Of a DNA stretch of 46,131 bases, positions 3,468-35,315 are shown one piece after another (position 1 is the stretch's first letter; each line of letters begins with the position of its first letter). Made by a program: the position numbers and the translations under genes. The notes under the pieces were generated by a model, which was not told the DNA's origin, did not search any database, and was given only the letters and a program-made list of their open reading frames with translations. Source of the stretch: Kiloniellales bacterium (GTDB taxonomy: Bacteria > Pseudomonadota > Alphaproteobacteria > Kiloniellales > JAKSBE01); NCBI GenBank assembly GCA_030066685.1, contig JASJBF010000002.1:289847-335977 (forward strand), read 5' to 3'.

Positions 3468-3484
3468 ATAGCTTGTTCATCGGC

Positions 3485-3637
3485 GGTGCTGCGGGGTGCG
3501 TCAGGCCTTTCGATCCCTGGGGCCAATACGACCCTCTAGGGAGCTGTCCCTGCCGGAGCCGTGGTTCCGGTATATGGCGCCCACCTGCGTAAGCAGGCCA
3601 CAGAGGATGATATCCGGCCAACGGCCTTTGCGGCACC
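3485..3637 (+). ncRNA. ssrS: 6S RNA
   Basis: 6S RNA mimics an open promoter and sequesters housekeeping RNA polymerase. The 210 bases between zapA and fthC hold no gene but fold as a long imperfect rod. The closing stem pairs GGTGCTGC (3485-3492) with GCGGCACC (3630-3637). The middle is a purine/pyrimidine-rich bulged region (GGGAGCTGTCCCTG), and the tip is a CCTGC-GTAA-GCAGG hairpin. Length (about 153 nt), closing stem, apical hairpin and position just upstream of the 5-formyltetrahydrofolate cyclo-ligase gene all match proteobacterial 6S RNA. Ends are estimated from pairing. Confidence 0.8.
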
Positions 3638-3678
3638 GCTTGTCCCTTTTGCTTTCGAGTCCGATCCGCCTGCAGTCC

Positions 3679-8613: not shown

Positions 8614-9059
8614 TCGAGGCCCTGTCCGGACGCTTCGACGGCGTGGAGCATGTCATGCCGCTGCGGGTCTACTACGAGGACACCGACGCGGCGGGCATCG
8701 TCTACTACGCCAACTACCTGAAGTTCGCCGAGCGGGCGCGGACCGAGATGCTCCGCCTGCTCGGCATTCACCAGCGCAGCATGTCCGAGGACTACGGCCT
8801 GGCCTTCGCGGTCCGGGACTGCAGCGTCGACTACCGCCGGCCGGCCCGCCTGGACGATCTGCTCGAGGTGCGCTCGCGCCTGGTCAAGCTGAGCGCCGCG
8901 GCGGCGCGCGCGGTCCAGCGCATCACCCGCGAGGGCGAGCACCTCGCCAGCGTCCGGGCGCGGATCGCCTGCATCCGCCTCGACGGCAAGCCGTCGCCCA
9001 TCCCGCAGCCCCTGCGCCGGGCGCTGCTCCCCTTTTGCTTTCCGGAAGAACGGGTTTAG
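8610..9059 (+). CDS. ybgC: Tol-Pal system-associated acyl-CoA thioesterase YbgC
   Basis: 149-residue hot-dog thioesterase (4HBT). The signature [19 protein letters not shown] (21-39) carries the catalytic Asp region. Its first gene junction overlaps ruvB (ATGA), so the ruv and tol genes may form one long transcript. Association with Tol-Pal is by conserved operon position; a role in phospholipid metabolism is known for the family but not shown here. Confidence 0.95.
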
Positions 9060-9061
9060 CC

Positions 9062-9790
9062 ATGCCAAACGAATCGGTCGATAGCCTCACACTGGGCGGC
9101 TCCGCCGCCAGCGATCTGACGGTCTGGGGGCTGTTTCTCGAAGCCGACATCGTGGTCAAGATCGTCATGATCATCCTGCTGTTCTGTTCGTTCTGGACCT
9201 GGGCGATCATCTTCGAGAAGATCTCGCGGCTGCGCCGGCTGCGCTCCCGCGCCGAGGACTTCGAGGAGTCCTTCTGGTCGGGCGGCTCGCTGGACGATCT
9301 CTACGACCGCCTCGACAGCCGGCCGACCGATCCCATGTCGGCTCTCTTCGTCTCCGCCATGCGCGAGTGGCGCCGCTCGATCGCCAAGGGCCTTGCCGCT
9401 TCGGAGCAAGCCCGCAACGGACTGCAGCAGCGCGTCGAGCGGGTCATGGGAATCACCCTTGGCCGCGAGATGGACCGCCTGGAGCGGCACATGACCTTCC
9501 TGGCCTCGGTCGGCTCGGCGGCGCCCTTCGTCGGCCTCTTCGGCACGGTCTGGGGCATCATGAACGCCTTTACCTCGATCGCCGCCTCCAAGAACACCAG
9601 CCTTGCGGTGGTCGCGCCGGGCATCGCCGAGGCGCTCTTCGCGACCGCCCTCGGCCTGGTCGCGGCGATCCCGGCGGTGATCGCCTTCAACAAGCTGTCC
9701 AACGACCTGGGCCGCTATGCGGCGCGCCTCGAGGCCTTCCAGGTCGAGTTCGGGGCGATCCTGTCCCGCCAGATGGAGGAGGCCCGCTAG
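9062..9790 (+). CDS. tolQ: Tol-Pal system protein TolQ
   Basis: 242-residue inner-membrane stator subunit homologous to ExbB/MotA. Three membrane segments are visible: one near residues 27-50 (VVKIVMIILLFCSFWTWAII), and two in the C-terminal half (TFLASVGSAAPFVGLFGTVWG and ALFATALGLVAAIPAVIAF). The ATG at 9062 sits two bases after the ybgC stop. TolQ and TolR use the proton gradient to energise TolA. Confidence 0.95.
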   Translation: MPNESVDSLTLGGSAASDLTVWGLFLEADIVVKIVMIILLFCSFWTWAIIFEKISRLRRLRSRAEDFEESFWSGGSLDDLYDRLDSRPTDPMSALFVSAMREWRRSIAKGLAASEQARNGLQQRVERVMGITLGREMDRLERHMTFLASVGSAAPFVGLFGTVWGIMNAFTSIAASKNTSLAVVAPGIAEALFATALGLVAAIPAVIAFNKLSNDLGRYAARLEAFQVEFGAILSRQMEEAR

Positions 9791-9791
9791 C

Positions 9792-10259
9792 ATGGCAGGA
9801 CCTATGATCGCCAGTAGCCGCGGCAGCGGGCGGGCAGCCCGCTACCGGCCCATGGCCGAGATCAACGTGACACCCTTCGTCGACGTCATGCTGGTCCTGC
9901 TGATCGTCTTCATGGTGACCGCGCCGCTCTTGACCGTCGGCGTGCCGGTCGATCTGCCGAAGACCCAGGCCAAGACGATCTCGGACCCGGAGGAGCCGCT
10001 GGTCATCAGCGTCGACGCGTCCGGCGAGATCTACCTGCAGGACAGCCAGATCGAGATCGAGAACCTGGTGCCCCGGCTGGTCGCGATCACCGAGAACAAG
10101 CCGGACACGCGAATCTTCGTGCGCGGCGACCAGTCGATTTCCTACGGCCAGATCATGGAGGTCATGGGCACGGTCAACTTCGCCGGCTTCCGAAGGGTCG
10201 CCCTGATCGCCGAGATGCCGGGGACCCGAAAGCCCAAGAAGGGCAAGAAGGACGGCTGA
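9792..10259 (+). CDS. tolR: Tol-Pal system protein TolR
   Basis: 155 residues: a short cytoplasmic N-terminus (YRPMAEINVTPFVDVM), one membrane helix (VMLVLLIVFMVTAPLL) carrying the essential Asp of the FVDVML motif, and a periplasmic ExbD/TolR domain ending in a Lys-rich tail (KPKKGKKDG). The start is the ATG at 9792, one base after the tolQ stop; the upstream continuation of the frame lies inside tolQ. Confidence 0.94.
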   Translation: MAGPMIASSRGSGRAARYRPMAEINVTPFVDVMLVLLIVFMVTAPLLTVGVPVDLPKTQAKTISDPEEPLVISVDASGEIYLQDSQIEIENLVPRLVAITENKPDTRIFVRGDQSISYGQIMEVMGTVNFAGFRRVALIAEMPGTRKPKKGKKDG

Positions 10260-10263
10260 GCCC

Positions 10264-11190
10264 ATGCGCGGTGGCATGATCTCCTCGACCCTGCTGCACC
10301 TGGCGGTGCTGATCGTGATCGCGGTCGGCCTGCCGGACTTCGGCCGGGACCTGGAGGTCGCGCCGCCGATCCCGGTCGAGATCGCGACCATCGACGATCT
10401 GACCCGCCCCAAGCCGAGCAAGACGCAGAAGCCGGAGCCCAAGGTCGCGGAGGTGGAAGAGCCGCAGGAGATCCCCGACGCGCCGCCACCGCCGCCGCGC
10501 CCGGTGGCCGCGCCGCCACCGCCGCCCGAGCCAGCCCCGGAGCCGCAGCAGCAGGCGGCGCTGCCCGACCCGACGCCGCCGGAGCCGACCCCGGAGCCCG
10601 AGCCGGAACCTTTGCCCCTGCCCGAGCCCGAGGCGAAGCCCGAGCCTAAGGAAGAGGTCAAGGAGAAGCCGAAGCCGAAACCGCCGGCGCCCCGACCGAA
10701 CCGCAAGCCGCAGGTGAAGCTGGCCAAAAAGCCCGAGAAGAAGAAGGAAGAGCCGAAGGAGGATCGGCTGGCGTCGATCCTGAACAACGTCGACCAGCTG
10801 AAGAAGGAAATTCCTACGCCCAGCGAGGAGAAGAAGCAGGAGGCGCCGCAGTCCCGACAGCAGGTATCGGCTCTTGATCAGAGAGTGACGATCAGCGAGA
10901 AGGACGCGATCATTCGGCACGTCTCACGTTGCTGGAACGTACCGGCTGGGGCGCGAGATGCGGAGAAGCTGATTGTTGGGCTCCGGGTCTACCTCCATGT
11001 CGATGGCACGGTCCAACGAACCCAGATTGAAGACCTATCGCGTCTTAGAGATCCCTTCTTCAGAGCCGCTGCCGAAGCGGCCGACAGGGCGGTGAGGCGT
11101 TGCAGCCCTCTGCCTACGCCGAATAAGGACTACAGCGCTTGGCGAGTCATGCTTCTCAATTTCGATCCGTCGGAGATGTTGGGACAATGA
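10264..11190 (+). CDS. tolA: Tol-Pal system protein TolA (energy-transducing, Pro/Glu/Lys-rich)
   Basis: 308 residues. An N-terminal membrane helix ([18 protein letters not shown], residues 5-22) is followed by a long low-complexity periplasmic linker (about 45-200) rich in Pro, Glu and Lys, with PPPPPRP and repeated PEP units. The C-terminal domain (about 215-308) is TonB/TolA-like ([19 protein letters not shown] ... [13 protein letters not shown]). Many alphaproteobacterial TolA proteins have a Pro-rich rather than Ala/Lys helical linker. It bridges TolQR to TolB/Pal at the outer membrane. The 3' third is visibly less GC-rich than the rest of the gene. The stop overlaps the tolB start. Confidence 0.92.
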
Positions 11191-12524
11191 AACACTTGGT
11201 ACATCGGAAGATGGCGGTCGCCATCCTCGGCCTCCTCGCTCTTGCGGTCTTCGGTTCGCCCGTGCGGGCCGAGCTGCGGATCGACATCACGCGTGGCATC
11301 GTCGAGCCGATACCGGTGGCGGTGACCGAATTTTACGGAGACGAGGCCGAGCAGGCGCAAATCGGCCGCGATATCGCAGGTGTGATCGCCGCGAACCTCG
11401 AACGCTCCGGCCTGTTTCGGCCTGTCGACAAGCGTGCCTTCATCCAGGACGCCGAGAGCCTGCGTGCCGCACCGCGTTTCGCCGACTGGCGCCTGATCAA
11501 CGCCCAGGCGCTGGTCAACGGCAGCATCCAGCAGCAGGCCGACGGCCGGCTCAACGTCGAGTTCCGGCTCTGGGACGTCTACGCCGAGAAGCAGATGACC
11601 GGCTTTGCCTACTTCACCACGCCGACCAACTGGCGCCGGATCGCCCACATCATCTCCGATGCGATCTACCAGCGCCTGACCGGCGAGGACGGCTACTTCG
11701 ACACCCGGGTCGTCTACATCGCCGAGAGTGGCCCGCAGACCCGGCGCATCAAGCGCCTGGCGATCATGGACCAGGACGGCGAGAACCACCGCTTCCTGAC
11801 CGACGGCGGCTCGCTGGTGCTGACCCCGCGTTTCTCGCCGACCAACCAGGAGATCACTTACGTCTCCTACATCGGCAAGATCCCGCGGGTCTATCTCTTC
11901 AACCTGAACACCGGCCAGCGCGAGGTCCTGGGCGATTTCCCGGGCATGACCTTCGCGCCGCGCTTTTCGCCCGACGGCAACGACGTGATCATGAGCCTGG
12001 CCCGCGACGGCAACTCCGACGTCTACGTCATGGACCTGCGGACCCGCAGCCTGCGGCGCCTGACCAACCATCCCTCGATCGACATCTCGCCGTCCTTCTC
12101 ACCGGACAAGTCGAAGATCATCTTCAACTCCGACCGGGGCGGCAGCCAGCAGCTCTACGTCATGAACGGCGACGGCTCGGGCGTGCGCCGGATCAGCTTC
12201 GGCAAGGGCCGCTATGCGACCCCGGTCTGGTCGCCGCGCGGCGACCTCATCGCCTTCACGCGGATTCATCAGGGCCAGTTCTACGTCGGCGTCATGCGCC
12301 CCGACGGCTCGGGCGAACGCATGCTGGTCAACGACTTCCGGATCGAGGGGCCGACCTGGGCGCCGAACGGGCGCATCCTCGCCTTCTTCCGGCAAGGTCA
12401 ATCCAATGAAAGGGGCCAAGTTTCGACCAAGCTGTACACAATAGACCTCACCGGTTATAACGAACGCGAAATGATCACGCCTATCGATGGCTCCGACCCG
12501 GCGTGGTCTCCGCTCAATCCTTAG
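11187..12524 (+). CDS. tolB: Tol-Pal system beta-propeller protein TolB
   Basis: 445 residues. Signal peptide [20 protein letters not shown]...GSPVRA, then an N-terminal TolB domain (about 30-160) and a six-bladed propeller with repeated SP-type blades ([74 protein letters not shown]). A periplasmic protein that binds Pal and TolA. The ATG at 11187 overlaps the tolA TGA; the frame open from 11139 lies inside tolA. Ends in DPAWSPLNP, the usual TolB C-terminus. Confidence 0.96.
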
Positions 12525-26982: not shown

Positions 26983-27581
26983 TCCAGACCACAAGCCCGC
27001 GTCACGCCGGTCTCCTGGCCGTGCTGGTGCTGTCCTGCATCCTGGCGGCCTGCGCCGAGAGCCAGCCCTCGCGCTTCTACCTGCTTTCGAGCCTGCCGCC
27101 GGCTGAGGCCGGCGAGTCGGCCAAGCCGCTTTCGGTCGGGGTCGGGCCGATCTCCATGCCGGAGTACCTGAACCGCCCGCAGATCGTGACCCGCGACAGC
27201 TCGACTAAGCTGGCCCTAGCCGAGTTCGACCGCTGGGGCGAGCCCCTGGACGAGCTCTTCAGCCAAGCCATGGCGGCGAACCTCTCCGCGCTGCTCAAGA
27301 CCGAGCGGGTCTATCGGCTGCCCCGCCGCCGCACCGCCAGCCTCGACTACCAGGTCGAGATCGACATCTTTCGCTTCGACGCCGAGGCGACCGGCCTGGT
27401 CCAGCTGACCGCGCGCTGGTCGCTCTACGGCAAGGGCGGCAAGAAGCTCCTCAAGACCGGCACGGCGAATCTGACCGAGCAGGCCGGGCCGACCCCCGAG
27501 GACCTGGCCGAGGGCATGAGCCGCGTGGTCGAGCGCTTCAGCCGCAACATTGCCGGCGAGATCGGTTCGCGGCGCGGTTAG
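26979..27581 (+). CDS. pqiC: PqiC-type outer-membrane lipoprotein
   Basis: 200 residues, overlapping the pqiB stop by four bases. Lipoprotein signal LLAVLVLSCILAACAESQPS with lipobox LAAC, followed by the PqiC/DUF330 domain (RFYLLSSLPPAE, SVGVGPISMPEYLNRPQIVT, EFDRWGEPLDELF). It anchors the tip of PqiB at the outer membrane. Ends 73 bases before the converging aspartoacylase-like gene. Confidence 0.9.
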   Translation: MIQTTSPRHAGLLAVLVLSCILAACAESQPSRFYLLSSLPPAEAGESAKPLSVGVGPISMPEYLNRPQIVTRDSSTKLALAEFDRWGEPLDELFSQAMAANLSALLKTERVYRLPRRRTASLDYQVEIDIFRFDAEATGLVQLTARWSLYGKGGKKLLKTGTANLTEQAGPTPEDLAEGMSRVVERFSRNIAGEIGSRRG

Positions 27582-27654
27582 CGTCTGTATTGCAAGGACA
27601 ATCGATGTTCAATCCCGGGGTGTGGTCGTATGACGGCGATCCGGCTTGGTTCGG

Positions 27655-28743
27655 TTACACGATTGGCGGTTCGTCGGCCAGCTCGGAAGTCAGGCCGCGT
27701 TCGTAGGCGGCTTCTGGCTCAAAGTTGTCTAGGGAGCGCCCGACGATTTGCCCGCCCTCGTACTGGGCGATGTGAAACAGCGCGTCGCCCTCGTGCACCA
27801 GCGGCAAGTTGCTGCGCCCGATGGCAACGCCGCTGACGGAGCTCAGAATCTCGATCTCGTTCTCACCGAAAGGGTCGGCGACGACACCGAGGACTTGGCC
27901 CTCCTTGACCTGACTGCCCAGAGATGTGGTGGCTCGCAGCAAGCCGCTCTGTGGTGCGCGGATCCACCTGCTCGAGCCGATCATCAGCGGCTTCAGCTTC
28001 GCGGTCTTTCTTTTTGAAGCGGAGAGCATCTCCAGGGCGCGCATGACCCGAACGATGCCTTTGACACCCGCCCGGATGCAGGCTTCGTCGAAGCGCAGGG
28101 CCTCGCCGGCCTCGTAGACTATGACGGGCACATTCTGCCGGCTGGCGGCCTCTCGTAGGCTGCCTTCGCGCAATCCGGCGTTGATCAGAAGGGGCACGCC
28201 GAAGGCTTGTGCCAGCCGCTCAGTCTCCGGGTCGTCAAGGTTTGCCCGGATCTGCGGGAAGTTGTCGCGATGAATGGCGCCCGTGTGCAGGTCGATACCA
28301 TGCGTCGACTTGCTCACGATTTCGTCGAGGAACAGTCGTGCGAGACGCGCCGCGAGGGAGCCTCGAAGCGAACCGGGGAAGGATCGGTTGAGGTCTCGCC
28401 GGTCCGGCAGATAGCGGGATTGCGAGACGAACCCCAGAACGTTGACGATCGGAACGGCGATCAAGGTACCGCGCAATCGGCGCAATCCGCTGAGCCTCAG
28501 CAGGCGCCGGATGACCTCGACACCGTTGATTTCATCACCGTGTATCGCCGCGCTGACGAAAAGGCGTGGTCCCTCGGTTCTGCCATGGACGACCTGCACC
28601 GGCATGGTCATCGGCGTGTGCGTCGAAAGCTCGGCGATCGGCAGATCGATCGTGCAGCGCTGACCCGCTCGAACCTCGACGTTACCGAGGGTTATCGGGC
28701 TTCTCTCCTGCCTTGGTCGCTTGCGCGCCGTCTTGGCCACCAT
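27655..28743 (-). CDS. Succinylglutamate desuccinylase/aspartoacylase-family zinc hydrolase
   Basis: 362 residues, M14-type carboxypeptidase fold. Zinc ligands are H68 and E71 (AAIHGDEINGVEVI) and H153 (HGIDLHTGA); the YLPDRRDLNRSFPG loop binds the acidic substrate in relatives. A C-terminal beta-barrel (about 270-345) ends the protein. Relatives remove acyl groups from amino acids (AstE, aspartoacylase) or cleave related amides. It is the last gene of the minus-strand rimK cluster, 62 bases after mgtE. A substrate made by the RimK ligase is an attractive but unproven idea. The start at 28743 is chosen because homology begins there. Confidence 0.85.
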   Translation of the reverse strand: MVAKTARKRPRQERSPITLGNVEVRAGQRCTIDLPIAELSTHTPMTMPVQVVHGRTEGPRLFVSAAIHGDEINGVEVIRRLLRLSGLRRLRGTLIAVPIVNVLGFVSQSRYLPDRRDLNRSFPGSLRGSLAARLARLFLDEIVSKSTHGIDLHTGAIHRDNFPQIRANLDDPETERLAQAFGVPLLINAGLREGSLREAASRQNVPVIVYEAGEALRFDEACIRAGVKGIVRVMRALEMLSASKRKTAKLKPLMIGSSRWIRAPQSGLLRATTSLGSQVKEGQVLGVVADPFGENEIEILSSVSGVAIGRSNLPLVHEGDALFHIAQYEGGQIVGRSLDNFEPEAAYERGLTSELADEPPIV

Positions 28744-28805
28744 AACTTCAACAACTCCGCATTCTTGACCTTGCACGAGCCCGAGACTCAAAGGCGGTAC
28801 CAAGC

Positions 28806-30113
28806 CTACAGCATTCCCATGAGCAAGGTGGCGATGCCAAGGAACGAAAAGAACCCGGCGATGTCGGTGACGGTCGTCAGGATGATCGAGGACGATTGGG
28901 CCGGGTCCTGACCGAGGCGCTTCAACGCGATCGGCACGACAGCACCGGCGAAACCCGCTGAGATCATCGCGAGCACCATCGACATCGCGATCACCAGCAC
29001 CAGCCCGACCGAGCCGCTCCAGATCAGGACGCCGATGCCGCAGGTGACCGAGATGGCCAGGCCGTTGATCAAGCCGACGTTGACTTCCTTGACCATGACG
29101 GCCAGCCAATGGCGCACCGTGATCTCACGGAGCGCAAGGCCGCGCATGGTCACGGCCAGCGCCTGCGCGCCGGCATTGCCGGACTGACCGGCGACGACGG
29201 GCAGGAGCACGGCTAGTGCGGTCACCTGCGCGATGGTGTCCTCGAAGAGGCCGACGACCGCTGCCGCCAGAAAAGCCGTCAGCAAGTTGACCTGCAGCCA
29301 GGGCTGACGCTTGCGCACGGCGAAGGAAACCTTGGAGAGCGCGCGTTCGTCCTTGCTGGCACCCACCATCGTCTGGAGCGCGCCGCTCGCCTCTTCCTCC
29401 AGCGCCTTGACCAAGGTTGCGTAGCGAACCACAGCGACCAGCCGACCATCGAGGTCGACCACGGGGATGTTCGGCAGCCGTGACTTCTCCAGAAGGGCGA
29501 CGACCTCGTCTCTTGGCGCGGTCGCCTGCACGACGACGCTTGCCGGCTCGGAAATCTCGTGCAGGGTCTGGTCGAGATCGGCGATGGCGAGATCGTGGAT
29601 CGCGACTTTGGCCGAGAGACGGTTGTCGTCGTCGATGACGAACACCGAGTGGCGGTCTCGCAGCTTGGACCCCCGCAAGCGCTCCAGCGCCTGAGCGACG
29701 GTCATGCCGGGACGGAAGACCCCCACTCTGCTGTCCATCAAACGGCCCGCGCTGTCGTCGGGGTACTCCATCAGCGCCTGCAGTTCCCGACGAAGGGTTT
29801 CGTCCAGAAGCGCCAGTTGTTGCTGCCGCTCTTCGTCGTCGAACTGGCCCAAGAGCAGCAGTGTGGCGTTCGGGCTCATGTCCTCGAGAACATGCTTTGC
29901 CAGAGGAGCCGGCAGATGACGCAGCAGACTCGCCCCGATGTCGGGCGCCAACCATACGAACAGAGAGGTCACCGCTTCGGCCGACAGCTCGACAAGCGCT
30001 TGCGCAACTTCGGCCGGAGGCATCGCTTCGATCTGCTTGGCTGCATCGAGAGGGAAGTCGTGAAGGTAGCTTTGGTTCAGCAGAGCGACGGCCTTTGCGG
30101 ACTCGCCCGGCAT
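28806..30113 (-). CDS. mgtE: Magnesium transporter MgtE
   Basis: 435 residues. Domain order is MgtE_N superhelix (about 15-120), CBS pair (about 130-250), plug helix, then five membrane helices (about 285-435) with PVVAGQSGNAGAQALAVTMRG, the conserved pore segment, and SAGFAGAVVPIALKRLGQDPA. Cytoplasmic Mg2+ binding to the N and CBS domains closes the channel in studied MgtE. The ATG at 30113 is chosen for its GGGGAG Shine-Dalgarno. The upstream gene stops one base before it. Confidence 0.93.
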   Translation of the reverse strand: MPGESAKAVALLNQSYLHDFPLDAAKQIEAMPPAEVAQALVELSAEAVTSLFVWLAPDIGASLLRHLPAPLAKHVLEDMSPNATLLLLGQFDDEERQQQLALLDETLRRELQALMEYPDDSAGRLMDSRVGVFRPGMTVAQALERLRGSKLRDRHSVFVIDDDNRLSAKVAIHDLAIADLDQTLHEISEPASVVVQATAPRDEVVALLEKSRLPNIPVVDLDGRLVAVVRYATLVKALEEEASGALQTMVGASKDERALSKVSFAVRKRQPWLQVNLLTAFLAAAVVGLFEDTIAQVTALAVLLPVVAGQSGNAGAQALAVTMRGLALREITVRHWLAVMVKEVNVGLINGLAISVTCGIGVLIWSGSVGLVLVIAMSMVLAMISAGFAGAVVPIALKRLGQDPAQSSSIILTTVTDIAGFFSFLGIATLLMGML

Positions 30114-30114
30114 T

Positions 30115-30963
30115 TCAACTCTCCCCATCGCTTGCTAGCCGGCTCAAGCTGGGCGCTGCCGTTGCCGTATGCAGCAACCCGGCGAGTACGACGAGGAAGG
30201 CCTGGACGAGATGCACGACCAGCACATTGATCCGCGGGCCCTCCGCCGGCCCACGCTCGACGAGCAAGCTCTCGCGCAAGCTGTCGAAGTGGAGAACCCC
30301 GACCAGGCGGCGACTGCGATCGGTCACGGGAAGCGACAGGGCACGATCCCAGGCGGGCAGGGACACCACCGCAGCGAGGGAGGCATTGGGAGACACCCGG
30401 GTGAAATTCTTCTGCATCAATTCGCCCAGCAAGGCGTCGTCCTTAGCGCCCAGCAAGCCCTCGACATCGACGACGCCGCGTAGTCTCTTGTCCTCGTCGA
30501 TCACGAACAGAAGAGACCCCAGCCGCGTGCCGCTTCGGCGAATCCGTTCGAGGCAGTCTTTGACTGCGGTGTCCGGCGCAAAGGTCGCCTTTGGTGCGTC
30601 CATCCAAGCGCCGACCGTGCCAACATCATAGGCGAGGTAGCGCCGCAGAGCCGCGGCCTCTCGCCTGGAAAACGCTGCCAGGATTGCATCCTTGGTCGAA
30701 GGCGGCAGTGCCCGCATAAGCACGGAGCGCGCGTGCACCGTCGTCTTGGAAAGCACGGCGGCCGCTTTCTTGGGACTCGCACGTTCGAGGATCGCGACTG
30801 CGCGCGCCGGCTGCATCTGACTGAGCACGGTGGCGGTTCTGATCTCCGGCGCTTCCTCGAGGAAGGCGGCCGCGTCCTCGGGCGGGATCCGCTCCAGCGC
30901 ACGCGCCGCGCCAAGAGGTCGGGCCTCTAGAAACGCAATGCTCAGTTCGGTTGCCCTATTCAT
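30115..30963 (-). CDS. Pore-less MgtE-like protein (MgtE_N plus CBS pair)
   Basis: 282 residues. The first about 115 residues repeat the MgtE_N helical pattern (ARALERIPPEDAAAFLEEAP, ARAVAILERASPKKAAAVLS). A CBS pair follows (about 125-245, MDAPKATFAPDTAVKDCLER, LFVIDEDKRLRGVVDVEGLL). Only one possible hydrophobic helix (INVLVVHLVQAFLVVLAGLLH) stands where MgtE has a five-helix pore. It is directly upstream of a complete mgtE and may form a regulatory heteromer with it; that is inference. It overlaps the MscS-like gene by 8 bases. The sequence is intact, so it is not a recent frameshift of a second mgtE. Confidence 0.8.
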   Translation of the reverse strand: MNRATELSIAFLEARPLGAARALERIPPEDAAAFLEEAPEIRTATVLSQMQPARAVAILERASPKKAAAVLSKTTVHARSVLMRALPPSTKDAILAAFSRREAAALRRYLAYDVGTVGAWMDAPKATFAPDTAVKDCLERIRRSGTRLGSLLFVIDEDKRLRGVVDVEGLLGAKDDALLGELMQKNFTRVSPNASLAAVVSLPAWDRALSLPVTDRSRRLVGVLHFDSLRESLLVERGPAEGPRINVLVVHLVQAFLVVLAGLLHTATAAPSLSRLASDGES

Positions 30964-31795
30964 CGGAGGGCGCTTCCGTTACGAGCGTCGTCGTCTCTTC
31001 GCTGAAGACCTTGGCTGGAATGACAACACGGCCTTTGGTCGTCGCGAGAATGACGGATACCGGCGTCAGCTCGAGGATTTCGCCCTCGACACCACCCATC
31101 CTCGCACGTTGTCCGGGCTGATACTGCTGCTGCAGGTAGTGCGAGCCGATCAGGTTGCCGACGAAGCTGCGCGACCCTAGTGCGAAAGCCAAGGCCAGGC
31201 TGCCCACGACCGCTGCAACCAGGATCGCGATCAACGTGATAAGTAGCGTAACGTCGATGCCGATCTGATTGATGCCCAGAACCAGGGCGGTCACGAAGAT
31301 CGCCGCCTGTACGCTTCCGCCGAAGAGCTCGGCGTGCGGGAAGCCTCCCGAGGCGACGGCGGCGGTGGTCAAGTCGCGGGCCAGCGTGCTGATCAACAGG
31401 CCGACCAGGATGATCAGTCCGCCGGCGAGCAGGGTGGGCAGATAAACTACCACCCGGTCGAGCCAGGCGGAGAAGGCGTCGAGCCCGAGCACCCGGGTCG
31501 CCGCAGTGACGAAGAAGAGGATAATGACCCAAAACGTCACGTTGCCGATCAGCTTGACCCCGGCATTGGAGATACGGAGACGGCGTGCCTGCTCAGCCCC
31601 GAAGCGGCGATCGAAAAGGCCGTTCAGCCAGTTCGCGAACCTGACGCCCAGGGACTGCAGGATGCGCGCGATAAACCAGCCGGCGAATAGGATGACGATC
31701 GCACCGGCCAGAGTCGGCAGAAACTCTACCAACTGCCCGATCAGGCGTGAGGCCGCCGCGCTGGCCTCCTTGAACCAAAGGGACACCTCTTCCAT
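30956..31795 (-). CDS. Short MscS-like mechanosensitive ion channel
   Basis: 279 residues. Membrane segments lie at about 25-45, 85-105, 115-140 and 160-200. The MscS pore-helix/beta-domain signature follows: SLALAFALGSRSFVGNLIGS, GQRARMGGVEGEILELTPVS and RVVIPAKVFSEE. The protein ends soon after the beta domain, so the C-terminal alpha/beta cage of Escherichia coli MscS is absent. The N-terminal part resembles the conserved TM-helix family often fused to MscS. The ATG at 31795 has GGGAG upstream. Position between rimK and the mgtE genes suggests a link to ion or turgor balance. Confidence 0.85.
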   Translation of the reverse strand: MEEVSLWFKEASAAASRLIGQLVEFLPTLAGAIVILFAGWFIARILQSLGVRFANWLNGLFDRRFGAEQARRLRISNAGVKLIGNVTFWVIILFFVTAATRVLGLDAFSAWLDRVVVYLPTLLAGGLIILVGLLISTLARDLTTAAVASGGFPHAELFGGSVQAAIFVTALVLGINQIGIDVTLLITLIAILVAAVVGSLALAFALGSRSFVGNLIGSHYLQQQYQPGQRARMGGVEGEILELTPVSVILATTKGRVVIPAKVFSEETTTLVTEAPSDE

Positions 31796-31888
31796 CGTGT
31801 CTACTCCCATCGCTCCTGGCCGCCTGCGCCGATATCGGCGTTAGCCGGTGCCTCCCCAGGACGGAGGCAACGCAGCGCTGCGCCCGGG

Positions 31889-32794
31889 CTAGCCTCGTCC
31901 GCGGGTCCTGGTCTTGTTTGGCCTGGCGTTCTTCTCAAGGAACTCGATGACCTTGCCGGCAACGTCGATTCCCGTCGCGTTCTCGACGCCTTCGAGTCCC
32001 GGGCTGGAGTTGACCTCCATGACCACCGGTCCGTGGTTCGAGCGCAGCAGGTCGACACCGCAGACGTTGAGCCCCATGGTCGCCGCTGCGCGCACCGCGG
32101 TCGAGCGCTCCTCCGGGGTGATCCTGATCACCTCGGCCGAACCGCCGCGGTGCAGGTTCGAGCGAAAGTCGCCCTCCGCTCCCTTGCGCCTCATGGCCGC
32201 GACGACCTTCTCTCCGACGACGAGACAGCGAATGTCCTCGCTGCTGGCTTCCTTGATGAACTCCTGCACGAGGATGTTCGCCTTGACGCCGCGAAAAGCC
32301 TCGATGATCGATTTGGCGGAGTTGTGCGTCTCTCCGAGGACGACGCCGATTCCCTGAGTGCCTTCCAGCAGCTTGATCACAACCGGCGTGCCGCCGGCGA
32401 TGTCGATCAGGTCTTCAGAGAACTTGGTGGAATGGGCGAAGGCTGTGACCGGCAGGCCTATGCCTTTGCGTGCCAAGAGTTGAAGCGAACGCAGCTTGTC
32501 GCGCGAGCGGCCGATCGCCACCGACTCGTTTAGCGGCCAAACGCCCATCATCTCGAATTGCCGCAGAACGGCGAGCCCGTAAAAGGTGATCGACGCACCG
32601 ATACGTGGAATCACCGCTTCATAGCCGAGCAGCTTCTCGCCCTTGTAGCGGAGCTCCGGACGATGGGAGGTGATGTTCATGTACACGAGCAGGGTGTTGA
32701 TGATATCGATCTCGTGTCCGCGCTGCTCCGCAGCCTCCACCAGCCGCTTGTGCGAATAGAGGTCCGGGTTGCGTGCCAAAAGCGCGATTTTCAT
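31889..32794 (-). CDS. rimK: Ribosomal protein S6--L-glutamate ligase RimK
   Basis: 301 residues, the same length as Escherichia coli RimK and alike from end to end ([105 protein letters not shown]). ATP-grasp enzyme that adds glutamates to the C-terminus of ribosomal protein S6; some homologues make poly-alpha-glutamate. The ATG at 32794 has GGAGAAGAGG upstream and overlaps the protease stop (ATGA), so the two are translationally coupled. Confidence 0.94.
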
Positions 32795-33279
32795 TCCTCT
32801 TCTCCTGTCGGTCTCTTTTGTTTCCTGCGCCGGCCGTGTGAAAGCTTGAAAGAGGTGCCCGAGTCCACGAGCAGGCGCTTGCGCAGTGCTTGTCGACCGA
32901 GCAGCATGCGAAAGCCCATCTCGTCGCGATTGGTCAGGGTTACCTGGATCATCCACACCTGCTCGCCCATTCTGAGCGGCGTTTCGATCACGTAGCGTTG
33001 CTCCCGTCTGCCGTTGGAGCTTGTGACGACTCTCTCGTCGACGATCGGCGCTTCGCAGAGGAGTTCGGGGAGCCGCCGGTGCTGGACCGGATGCACATAG
33101 AACCGGACGAAGCGGCGCCCACCTCGCCTGAAGGGCTTGACCCTGTAGGCGTGCAGCGCCGAGGTCCGGGCGCCGGTGTCCAGCTTTGCCTTGATGCGCT
33201 CGACGCCCAGATCGGGGAGCGCAATCCACTCGCGCCAGCCCACGACGAGTTGCTCGCGTTTCCGACGCCGCGGCTTCAT
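32791..33279 (-). CDS. RimB-type retropepsin-like ATP-dependent zinc protease family protein
   Basis: 162 residues (Zn_protease/RimB family). The aspartic-protease-like motif [13 protein letters not shown] is near 31-43, with [38 protein letters not shown] and a basic tail ([12 protein letters not shown]). In Pseudomonas the rimB product trims glutamates added by RimK; the coupling to rimK here fits that pairing. The start at 33279 is preferred, but a GTG at 33291 is possible. The upstream gene ends at 33292. Confidence 0.85.
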
Positions 33280-33291
33280 GGTCCCGCGCAC

Positions 33292-33618
33292 TCAGGTGAT
33301 TTCGGCCAAGGAGTCTGTCGCGGAGCCTCCGGGTAGAGCCTCGGCGACGCAACTGTCGCTCAGACGTCGGTAGTTGCGGAAGGAACGCTGCGGCAGGATC
33401 ACGAAGAAGGTCTCGAGATCGATCAGCACGAAGCCCAGTTCGAAGAGCTCCTCGCCGATCTTCCGGACCGTCTCGGCGGGGACGCGTCTGCGCTGCGTTA
33501 AGAGCTTGAAGTGCTTCATCGAGATACGGAAGCGACCGCGGTCCTTGCCTCCGAACCTGCGGTCATAGAAACCGGCGAGCCGCTCCGCGACCTGGCGCTC
33601 CGTCAGTCTTTCCGTCAA
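33292..33618 (-). CDS. Small basic protein of unknown function, first gene of the rimK cluster
   Basis: 108 residues from a TTG at 33618 with a perfect GGAGG five bases upstream. Basic N-terminal half ([20 protein letters not shown]), then an alpha/beta segment resembling a small winged-helix-like fold ([37 protein letters not shown]). I do not recognise a named family. It is adjacent to the rimB-like gene and behind the cluster promoter. Pseudomonas has a small rimA gene in the same place, but I see no sequence similarity to support calling it RimA. Confidence 0.65.
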
Positions 33619-33678
33619 GTCAGCCTCCGCCCCAACAGCAAGGCAATCTGTGATGTCGGATTCTAAGTGTGCCAGAAA

Positions 33679-33722
33679 ATCAGATATAGATAAAGAAAAT
33701 TTGTCTATAGATATATTTTTTT
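33679..33722 (-). promoter_or_regulatory. Promoter of the rimK cluster with upstream A-tract
   Basis: Read on the minus strand: an A-tract AAAAAAATATATC (33710-33722) resembling an UP element, TAGACA as -35 (33707-33702, five of six consensus bases), a 17-base spacer, and TCTGAT as -10 (33684-33679). Transcription would start near 33672, about 55 bases before the TTG at 33618. Confidence 0.5.
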
Positions 33723-33772
33723 GAGCTTAATCCAAAACCGTCCCGGGGAGAGGGCAGAACGCTCGGCGCAAG

Positions 33773-33786
33773 CCGGCGATCGCCGG
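33773..33786. repeat. Perfect palindrome CCGGCGATCGCCGG
   Basis: Self-complementary 14-mer between the MocR stop and the rimK-cluster promoter. It contains GCGATCGC. It may be an operator or part of a transcription end for the MocR gene; no U-tract supports a terminator. Confidence 0.45.
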
Positions 33787-33926
33787 ATTCGGGAGGCGCC
33801 TTCGGGCTCCGTCCCGGTCCCTCGGATGTGGCTGATTCGATTGAAGAGGTGCGCGAATGTCCCGCCGCCGCCCTCGCTGAACGGCTCGCAGCTCAGGAGG
33901 GTCGCGTGTCTCGAGCGGCCCTCGAA

Positions 33927-35315
33927 CTAGACCAGGGCCGGGGTGCCGGCGGGGGCCTGATCCAGGATCCGGCTCAGGGTCTCCAGGCCGGCCTTGAGCT
34001 GCGCCCGGCTCGCAGCGGCGTGCAGGCAGAGGCGCACGGCGTGGGGCACGGGCTGCCGGCCGACCGCAAAGACCCGGGCCGAGCCGACCATGACGCCCCG
34101 CCGACGGGCCTCCGCGGCGTAATCCTCGTGGCGCCAGGGCCGCGGCAGGGTCAGCCAGGCGTGGAAGCAGCGGGGGTGGGTGACCAGATGGCCGGCCGGC
34201 AGGATCGCCCGCGCCAGGCTCTGGCGGACCTCGGCCTCCCGGCGCTTGGCGTCCGCGGCCTGCTTGGCCTTGCCGCTGCGGATCAGGCGGGTCGCCAGCT
34301 CGGCCATGAAGCCTGAAGGCATGAGGGTGCTGGCCCTCAGCGCGGTCGCGATCCGGTCGTGGAAGGCCAGGGGCGCGCGCAGAAGGCCGATGCGCAGGCC
34401 CGGCGCCACGCACTTCGACAGGCTGGTGGCGTAGAAGCTGCGCTCCGGGGCCAGGGCGGACAACGGCGTCACCGGCGCATCGAGCAGGAAGCTGTAGATG
34501 TCGTCCTCGATGATCATGACGTCGTGGCGCCGGCAGATCTCGACGATGCGCCGCCGCCGGGCCTCCGGCAGGACCGTGGTCGTCGGGTTCTGCAAGGTCG
34601 GGATGCAGTAGAGCACCCGGGCGCCGCTGGAGCGGATCGCGGCCTCCAGCGAATCCGGCACCAGGCCCTGATCGTCCAGAGCGACCCCGTAGAGCTGGCG
34701 CTCCAAGGCCTCGGCGATCGACTTGATGCCGTAGTAGGTCAGGGCCTCGGTCAGGATCACCTCGCCCGGGCGGGTCAGAGCGACCGCAGCGAGGAACATG
34801 GCGTGCTGGGCGCCGCAGGTCACCACGATCTCCTCCGGCGGTACCTCCAGCCCGGCGCCCTTCAGCCAGTCGGCAGCCGCGGCACGGTGCGATTCCCGAC
34901 CCGGACCCAGCAGGTAGCCGAGGTGGCGGTTCAGCTCGGGATCCCGTGCCATGCCCGCCAGCTCCTCGCCGAAGAGGGCGTGGTCGGACTCCAGCGCCGG
35001 AAAGTTGTAGGACAGGTCGATCAGGCCGTCCTCGTCGCCGAGATCCTGGAAGGTCGGCGGGGCGCTCGGCAGTTGCTCGCGCACGAAGGTGCCGCGGCCG
35101 ACCTCCCCGGCGATCAGACCCCGGCGCTCGGCTTCGGCATAGGCCCGGCTGACGGTGCCGACGGTGACGCCGAGGTGCCAGGCGAGGTCGCGATGGGTCG
35201 GCAGGCGGTCGCCGGGCGCCAGGCGTCCCTTGGAGACGTCCTGGGCCAGGGCCTCGGCGATCGCCAGGTAGCGCGGGCCGCTGAGGTCTTCGAGATTGGG
35301 TCGCCAAGTTGTCAT
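33927..35315 (-). CDS. MocR-type GntR/aminotransferase-like transcription regulator
   Basis: 462 residues. N-terminal winged-helix GntR domain (about 12-80: KGRLAPGDRLPTHRDLAWHL, VTVGTVSRAYAEAERRGLI) fused to a fold-type I aminotransferase domain (about 100-460). The PLP lysine is K301 in ATSLSKCVAPGLRIGLL; also visible are YNFPAL, GYLLGPGRESHRAAAADWL, TCGAQHAMFLA and QNPTTTVLPEARRR. Such proteins sense PLP or amino compounds and usually control a divergent neighbour, here the DUF1127 gene and the EamA/PhzF/GNAT genes behind it. The ATG at 35315 is where homology starts. Confidence 0.92.
   Translation of the reverse strand: MTTWRPNLEDLSGPRYLAIAEALAQDVSKGRLAPGDRLPTHRDLAWHLGVTVGTVSRAYAEAERRGLIAGEVGRGTFVREQLPSAPPTFQDLGDEDGLIDLSYNFPALESDHALFGEELAGMARDPELNRHLGYLLGPGRESHRAAAADWLKGAGLEVPPEEIVVTCGAQHAMFLAAVALTRPGEVILTEALTYYGIKSIAEALERQLYGVALDDQGLVPDSLEAAIRSSGARVLYCIPTLQNPTTTVLPEARRRRIVEICRRHDVMIIEDDIYSFLLDAPVTPLSALAPERSFYATSLSKCVAPGLRIGLLRAPLAFHDRIATALRASTLMPSGFMAELATRLIRSGKAKQAADAKRREAEVRQSLARAILPAGHLVTHPRCFHAWLTLPRPWRHEDYAAEARRRGVMVGSARVFAVGRQPVPHAVRLCLHAAASRAQLKAGLETLSRILDQAPAGTPALV

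Follow-up and report, generated by a model that had tools for sequence, protein, structure and literature searches.

Gene content and organization of the locus

This work concerns a seven-gene cluster of a Kiloniellales bacterium (GCA_030066685.1, contig JASJBF010000002.1) in which genes of the RimB/RimK glutamylation type lie next to genes for an MscS-like channel and Mg2+ transporters. The window, meaning the whole stretch of DNA that was analysed, comprises 46,131 nucleotides (nt) and corresponds to G000:C2:289847-335977; the unit occupies positions 27655-33618 on its minus strand, in the order orf1, rimB, rimK, msc, mgtEs, mgtE, astE. An earlier note, made from the sequence letters, had listed these seven genes, and open reading frames together with Pfam and NCBIfam matches confirmed all of them in this order and on this strand.

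The first gene, orf1 (33292-33618, minus strand), has a TTG start and encodes a protein of 108 amino acids with a winged-helix-like predicted model, which is proposed here to be a local regulator. It is followed by rimB (32791-33279, minus strand), encoding a retropepsin-like protease (PF05618, E 2e-35), located directly upstream of rimK (31889-32794, minus strand) and overlapping it by 4 nt. The rimK product is an alpha-L-glutamate ligase matching the NCBIfam S6-glutamate ligase model NF007764. Next come msc (30956-31810, minus strand), encoding a short MscS-superfamily channel (PF05552); mgtEs (30115-30963, minus strand), encoding a pore-less MgtE protein that contains MgtE_N and a CBS pair without PF01769; and mgtE (28806-30113, minus strand), encoding a full Mg2+ channel (TIGR00400), the second MgtE copy of a genome that has two. 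The last gene, astE (27655-28743, minus strand), encodes an AstE-like zinc hydrolase (PF24827, E 4e-39); its ATG lies at 28743, and a GTG at 28740 was taken as the start in most analyses.

Four of the six junctions overlap or are separated by at most 12 nt, so the compactness described in the earlier note is real, but its wording that most junctions overlap or lie within a base is slightly overstated, given gaps of 78 nt between rimK and msc and of 62 nt between mgtE and astE. The G+C content of the cluster is below that of its flanks. No sigma-70 promoter was predicted in 27400-34000, and terminator-like sites there were no more frequent than expected by chance. An Rfam scan of the window and five related loci at the gathering threshold returned no Mg2+ riboswitch; its only matches were one 6S RNA and three tRNAs. 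The 6S RNA gene is located at 3483-3640 of the window (81.6 bits).

Two modules in Alphaproteobacteria

A rimB match, in some cases a weak one, was found in 35 of the 61 genomes of the order. Neighbourhoods there share the core orf1-rimB-rimK-astE, accompanied in part of them by the channel trio msc-mgtEs-mgtE. The earlier note had named, in advance, restriction to a single genome as a refutation of its proposal; a scan of an 84,980-species collection with orf1 yielded 69 loci (the last two weak), 12 of which hold the whole channel trio, and the linkage is conserved across Alphaproteobacteria, as seen in gene neighbourhoods, orf1 loci and the class sample, where orf1 occurs in 11 of 289 genomes. 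Among the 69 loci, rimK is present in 63, rimB in 63, astE in 62 and mgtE in 31. In the other six no rimK is visible; these comprise loci at contig ends, L111 and the two weak loci L136 and L137. In the 32 loci whose flanks each span 6.5 kb, rimK and rimB are found in 32 each, astE in 31, mgtE in 15 and msc in 7.

The position of the trio relative to the core varies, according to arrangement classes assigned by eye. It lies inside the core in the window, in G034 and in G003 (which lacks orf1), downstream of it in G018, G020, G021, G022, G039 and L072, upstream in G037, and divergent from it in four Sneathiella, L131 and G166. A single MgtE gene is divergent from orf1 in 12 of the 31 mgtE-bearing loci, with an extra copy in L072, and stands downstream of the core in L089. 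Named hosts of a linked cluster include Sneathiella litorea (L096) and, with a single MgtE, Kiloniella laminariae (L120). In five Roseobacteraceae loci, an mgtE-rimB-rimK-astE run with MgtE first is divergent from orf1. G180, G293, G141 and G255 also carry the trio, with no rim genes in the part that was read, which points to two modules being joined. Judged by these neighbourhoods, rimB-rimK-astE is a recurring Pseudomonadota triad, and msc-mgtEs-mgtE is a second, alphaproteobacterial module, the two being joined in several orders.

Some loci depart from this pattern. L256 (G141:C7), at 8823-9633, holds a decayed-looking rim cluster in which orf1 is kept, rimK and astE are fragments and rimB gives no match; the same genome retains a channel trio elsewhere (L252). 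L033 (G026), from the same genus as the window, carries a different, core-only rim cluster with a RimB 44% identical and with no operator and no channel trio seen. This differing cluster, together with the low G+C content of the window cluster, indicates that the window version may have been acquired.

The MgtE pair and the MscS-like channel

The full MgtE of the window scores 247.1 bits against TIGR00400 (cut-off 232.75). Its pore Asp is kept, as it is in 34 of 34 linked MgtE rows and 17 of 17 others. In the class sample, among the matches listed, mgtEs is directly followed by the full MgtE gene in eight of eight genomes and preceded by msc in seven of seven readable ones. In each of 29 rimB-bearing genomes of the order, the best MgtE is either distant from the rim cluster or on a different contig, and 11 of 13 further MgtE places above 100 bits fall inside the cluster, which is more than expected by chance, the two outside being G019:C299 and G020:C92; these counts cover 29 of the 35 rimB-matching genomes, with seven weaker or partial places excluded. 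The MgtE tree of 51 rows (long branches flagged by the program; L280, L287 and L288 left out because they hold no full frame; one genome present twice as L037 and L120) resolves three well supported groups: 20 rim-linked single copies, 15 trio copies (one of them unlinked) and 16 others. Since the two rim-linked clades are deep and stand apart from the housekeeping copies, two MgtE lineages lie beside the triad, and L072 holds both linked kinds.

The tree rows also differ at a pore-loop site that is Asn in 31 rows (N329 of Thermus MgtE by count) and Cys in all 20 rows of the single-copy clade; the Cys may perhaps alter ion choice. In L052 (G003), a weaker MgtE-like gene (78 bits) lies on the opposite strand, approximately 3.5-2.5 kb before the rimB of the trio-bearing cluster.

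The msc product matches PF05552 only, with no match to PF00924, the beta-domain model, up to E 1. Its predicted model (pLDDT 77.5, pTM 0.43) contains transmembrane (TM) helices and a beta domain, and no C-terminal vestibule is seen. Against 6vyk, Foldseek gave E 5.8e-8 and probability 1.00, but a TM-score of 0.26. With MscS proteins as the top Foldseek matches, the model is that of a putative short MscS-superfamily channel, whose mechanosensitive gating is a prediction.

Triad neighbourhoods beyond the class

In a phylum sample of 349 genomes, the hydrolase was found in 84 (E <=1e-30) and rimB in 119 (E 1e-5). When the 82 hydrolase places above 400 bits were compared with 91 rimB rows, at least 48 of the 82 proved to have a same-strand rimB no more than 6 kb away. 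Leaving out the window, G166 and G302, 45 phylum loci remain; within 3.5 kb, 14 of them have an MscS gene, 10 a CorA gene, 2 an MgtE gene and 20 any of these, some flanks being cut in this and the other near-gene counts. In the orf1 set, a Mg transporter lies within 3.5 kb in 37 of 63 loci, and in the 12 orf1-less loci of the order MgtE, CorA or MscS does so in 3.

Because the wider query set had been drawn partly from the same loci, the near and far counts were repeated with queries independent of them (E. coli MscS, YnaI, YbdG, YbiO, CorA and ZntB, and the housekeeping MgtE). The contrast shrank, but MgtE, CorA and MscS genes were still more densely placed close to the triad in the two larger sets. 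For the 63 orf1-set loci, 49 matches were counted in 550 kb of near sequence (<=3.5 kb) vs 11 in 425 kb farther out; for the 45 other loci, 23 in 420 kb near vs 8 in 414 kb far. The wider set had given 70 vs 11 and 29 vs 8, respectively. Pfam bore out the assignment of all 20 proteins that were examined, 17 of them from the 45 loci and 3 from a Vibrio plasmid.

The gene orders themselves are diverse. Six orf1 loci without MgtE (L097, L101, L115, L121, L128 and L132) have CorA-like and MscS-like genes near the triad, as detected by tblastn only. A Vibrio europaeus plasmid carries rimK-astE-rimB-MgtE-CorA-MscS-Usp, V. nigripulchritudo has rimK-astE-rimB-MscS with ectoine synthase nearby, and in two Salinivibrio plasmids MscS and MgtE adjoin rimB-rimK-astE. 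A ZntB gene lies near the triad in Phaeobacter, and a cation:proton antiporter is found at the triad locus of Acaryochloris. Taken with the MgtE copies and tree and the near and far counts, these neighbourhoods bear out, as a link that recurs, the association put forward in the earlier note between glutamylation and genes for turgor and Mg2+.

RimB, RimK and the AstE-like hydrolase

RimK of the window scores 449.4 bits against NF007764, above the S6-ligase cut-off of 331, and its residues 1-301 align with 7qyr (467 bits, with roughly 70% identity estimated by eye), a structure from a Pseudomonas RimK paper (PMC10092738). RimK_N and PF05618 each match once in the genome. The RimB-type protease named earlier is upheld by PF05618 and by the DTGA motif, which occurs as D[TS]GA in 63 of 63 homologues, but at 136.2 bits it stays under the NCBIfam RimB equivalog cut-off of 200.

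The earlier note had named ribosomal protein S6 as the known substrate of RimK. As the target here, S6 is not borne out: S6 of the window genome ends in SAEGDKQ, a terminal Glu-Glu is present in none of 38 complete S6 sequences (two cut by contig ends, G026 and G039, were left out), and terminal Glu is no commoner in genomes with rimB (7 of 22) than in those without (7 of 16). S6 thus makes a poor candidate for the RimK target. Bacteria with an RpsF not ending in Glu have been noted before, with further roles of RimK regarded as possible, and poly-alpha-glutamate synthesis has been argued to drain free glutamate and shift the osmotic balance (PMC11957791).

The hydrolase is AstE/aspartoacylase-like at the level of its catalytic domain (PF24827, 134.8 bits, gathering cut-off 25) and its motifs, HGDE, DLH/DIH and DRRDLNR being present in 57 of 57 full-length homologues and EAGE in 54 of 57, but it is not AstE proper. 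It falls under the NCBIfam equivalog cut-offs for AstE (17.9 bits, cut-off 305.65), aspartoacylase (23.2, cut-off 180) and DoeB (75.4, cut-off 402.7). A plausible role would be the completion of a glutamate cycle. Plasmid records with the hydrolase come from marine or halophilic genera in 19 of 20 cases, the habitats being in part our presumption; seven are haloarchaea, at 31-35% identity. In the haloarchaeon Halolamina (L299, 3558-6035), the hydrolase gene is divergent from a gene for a long RimK/LysX-family protein of approximately 440 amino acids, perhaps a RimB-RimK fusion.

orf1 and the upstream inverted repeat

The orf1 product of the window has no NCBIfam match and one Pfam match under the cut-off (E 0.11); 52 orf1 members searched against Pfam hit eight families, each with one member and with a best E of 0.007. 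Residues G24, K25, G28, R29 and R84 are invariant in the 52 sequences. The predicted model (pLDDT 91, pTM 0.74) has an element order that fits a winged helix. All fold matches have Z below 8 and no Foldseek match has E below 0.001; many of the listed titles read as winged helices. Identity as an S100 protein, suggested by a PDB profile search with E >=0.024, was regarded as chance.

A predicted operator, the 23-bp inverted repeat ATAGACAAATTTTCTTTATCTAT (33686..33708, minus strand), lies 67 nt before the orf1 start and has the structure ATAGACAAA-N5-TTTGTCTAT. It is the single site at <=3 mismatches in the window genome (5.96 Mb), with 0 for the reversed control. A best score of at least 13/18 was reached in 44 of 69 upstream regions (the window and 68 loci) vs 0.4 per shuffled set, for a pattern that had been derived by eye from loci afterwards scored; separate tests are therefore provided by six further loci, by orf1-less loci and by the genome-wide search. 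Four of the six loci outside the derivation reach score 13. Among rim loci of the order, the 14 in whose stretch no orf1 is seen all stay below it, as do five phylum triads and four lone channel trios. G037, whose trio leads the cluster, has an operator-like site 271 nt ahead of msc and none ahead of orf1. Because the repeat is frequent before orf1 and was not found at orf1-less triads, orf1 is the predicted reader of the repeat and hence a candidate local regulator.

Two further observations concern the orf1 region. A MocR-type regulator gene (33927-35315 of the window, same strand) lies 309 nt upstream of orf1, and its product comes near to the ectoine-utilisation regulator EhuR (476 bits against a cut-off of 480), which is another osmolyte link; it was discarded as a regulator of the unit since a near match (88%) stands beside orf1 in only one of the 69 loci, L111. 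In that locus (10001-12473), from a near relative known as a Kiloniellales metagenome-assembled genome, the first 42 orf1 residues are fused directly to mgtE, and rimB, rimK, msc and mgtEs are absent, through deletion or misassembly.

Comparison with known systems

Among the closest described systems is the Pseudomonas rim operon (rimABK/rimBK). The window unit shares with it a RimK that matches over its full length (467 bits, 7qyr), preceded directly upstream by the gene for a retropepsin of the RimB family. In contrast to that operon, the seven genes of the window include no rimA phosphodiesterase domain (rimA being present in some species only), they add the AstE-like hydrolase, orf1, the MgtE pair and the MscS-like channel, and the C-terminal Glu signature of S6 is absent from the window genome (tail DKQ). 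The rlo operon of P. aeruginosa (RloA, RloB, RloC) likewise combines a retropepsin with an ATP-grasp ligase and has a published hypo-osmotic phenotype with polyglutamate cleavage. Unlike it, the window unit has no RloB-type transglutaminase-membrane protein, its ligase is of the RimK type, and its RimB reaches at most 78 bits to RloA models (cut-offs 210-280).

The hydrolase has the PF24827 domain and the zinc-site and DLNR motifs in common with AstE, aspartoacylase and DoeB, but lies far under their equivalog cut-offs and belongs to a subfamily that often adjoins rimK. The full MgtE agrees with Thermus MgtE in domain plan and pore Asp, but it is paired with a pore-less MgtE and is a second copy in its genome. 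The msc product resembles the MscS superfamily in its TM helices, beta domain and top Foldseek matches, and differs in having no visible C-terminal vestibule and no detected PF00924. In the tubulin glutamylation cycle, a TTLL ATP-grasp ligase is opposed by CCP, an M14-type zinc carboxypeptidase. The analogy lies in a ligase of this kind opposed by a zinc enzyme; the window system is bacterial, and the deglutamylase role is a prediction. No account of rim genes, MgtE, an MscS channel and an AstE-like hydrolase together was found in the searches made, which covered open-licence papers.

Possible role in salt and turgor adjustment

The sequence shows which genes are present, that their linkage recurs, which motif residues are conserved and where the operator lies; what RimK acts on, what AstE does, how the channel and transporters work, and that orf1 binds the repeat and senses a signal are inferred. 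Rim genes are repeatedly linked with MscS and with two Mg2+ transporter families unrelated to each other, largely in salt-adapted hosts, which suggests a setting of ions and turgor. We read the locus, with about even confidence, as a locally regulated ion- and turgor-adaptation unit that would couple a glutamate-chain cycle to Mg2+ and turgor, and its purpose is probably the response to a salinity downshift. Of the interpretation in the earlier note, a real unit, a conserved linkage and a tie to turgor and Mg2+ are retained, S6 as the target finds no support, and a likely regulator and operator that it had not noticed are added.

The poly-alpha-glutamate chemistry of RimB and RimK is established in Pseudomonas, where RimB stimulates RimK (rim literature). 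In the proposed mechanism, RimK would polymerise or attach alpha-linked glutamate, and the chains would be dismantled by RimB, acting as an endopeptidase, and by the AstE-like zinc hydrolase. The MgtE pair would import Mg2+ under the control of its own CBS domains, the short MscS-like channel would relieve turgor, and orf1 would bind the 23-bp repeat and control a transcript carrying all genes of the unit. When outside salt falls, free K-glutamate would have to be lost or hidden: the channel would vent solute, and RimK, stimulated by RimB as in Pseudomonas, would pack glutamate into chains, leaving fewer particles and retaining fixed negative charge, for which Mg2+ supplied by MgtE would be the counter-ion, also stabilising ribosomes. 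Upon a salt upshift, RimB and AstE would return the glutamate. The specific version of a reversible osmotic buffer, with a poly-alpha-glutamate store formed on downshift, Mg2+ balance through dedicated MgtE or CorA, a dedicated MscS vent, release by RimB and a rim-specific AstE-like enzyme, and orf1 with its local operator in orf1-bearing lineages, is speculative and, taken as a whole, rather unlikely.

We take K05844 to be rimK. K05844 is commoner in brackish than in marine genomes, and a mechanosensitive channel gene and Mg uptake genes are commoner at lower salinity (PMC10219603). In Photobacterium, expression at 1% NaCl exceeded that at 3% NaCl 52-fold for rimK and 5.4-fold for an MgtE (PMC10308900). 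Polyglutamate-cleaving Rlo proteases are required in hypo-osmotic conditions (PMC12239564). These low-salinity data fit a unit serving salinity downshift.

Several results weigh against it. In Photobacterium, rimK and the MgtE have widely separated locus-tag numbers, which makes a place of this MgtE in the cluster improbable, and in the Rlo work rimB deletion left hypo-osmotic growth unchanged (PMC12239564). No channel or transporter lies within 3.5 kb in 25 of the 45 phylum loci, 26 of the 63 orf1-set loci and 9 of the 12 orf1-less loci, and the last set shows no clear enrichment with independent queries (4 in 113 kb near vs 2 in 111 kb far). Haloferax and Legionella plasmids carry the hydrolase without the triad. 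As to the operator, only 3 of 15 Kiloniellales orf1 loci besides the window reach 13/18, several scoring 11-12; L033, from the same genus as the window, has a score of 9. In the order and class samples, most genomes hold, by eye, similar numbers of sites for the pattern and for its reversed control, and a large regulon for the repeat was rejected on these counts.

Other explanations account for part of the evidence. RimK could tag a ribosomal or other protein, with RimB and AstE removing the tag, and the Mg2+ and turgor genes could be co-expressed since translation needs retuning when ions change, the chain being no osmolyte store. Such a protein glutamylation switch, which we hold to be possible though doubtful, agrees with the full-length alignment to Pseudomonas RimK (467 bits), which modifies RpsF, with the dependence of ribosomes on Mg2+, and with the translation control favoured by the rim authors (PMC11957791). 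Against it stand the S6 tails described above, S6 being the one target examined: S6 of the window genome has no terminal Glu signature, none of the 38 sequences ends in Glu-Glu, and terminal Glu is not more frequent where rimB is present. Alternatively, RimK might make an N-acyl-glutamyl dipeptide or a similar solute whose acyl or peptide bond is cleaved by the aspartoacylase-like enzyme and which exits by the channel, comparable to mammalian NAAG synthase and aspartoacylase. Two points speak for such a small-molecule cycle: mammalian RimK-family ligases make N-acyl-glutamyl-type dipeptides, and the fold of the hydrolase places it in the family of AstE, ASPA and DoeB. It is nevertheless improbable, as the RimK is closest to the S6 type and RimB, which in Pseudomonas cuts chains of approximately five glutamates (PMC11957791), would be left without a role.

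The genes might also lie together without a joint function, if marine bacteria gather salt genes in one chromosomal or plasmid region where rim, MgtE and MscS sit independently. The G+C content lower than in the flanks and the plasmid copies fit horizontal transfer; the trios without rim genes in the part read (G180, G293, G141, G255) and the many triads without a nearby channel also speak for this reading. On the other hand, the reading frames overlap or nearly touch, the operator-like site of G037 precedes msc where the trio leads and not orf1, two MgtE clades are linked, and CorA replaces MgtE at other loci, which makes mere co-location improbable.

Returning to the ion- and turgor-adaptation unit, the presence of a glutamylation set beside Mg transporters and pressure-gated channels, mostly in bacteria of salty habitats, suggests that the modification helps these bacteria to adjust to salt and turgor. 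A setting is thereby proposed for RimK glutamate chains outside Pseudomonas, in which orf1 would be the candidate regulator, the 23-bp repeat its operator and the AstE-like protein the partner hydrolase.

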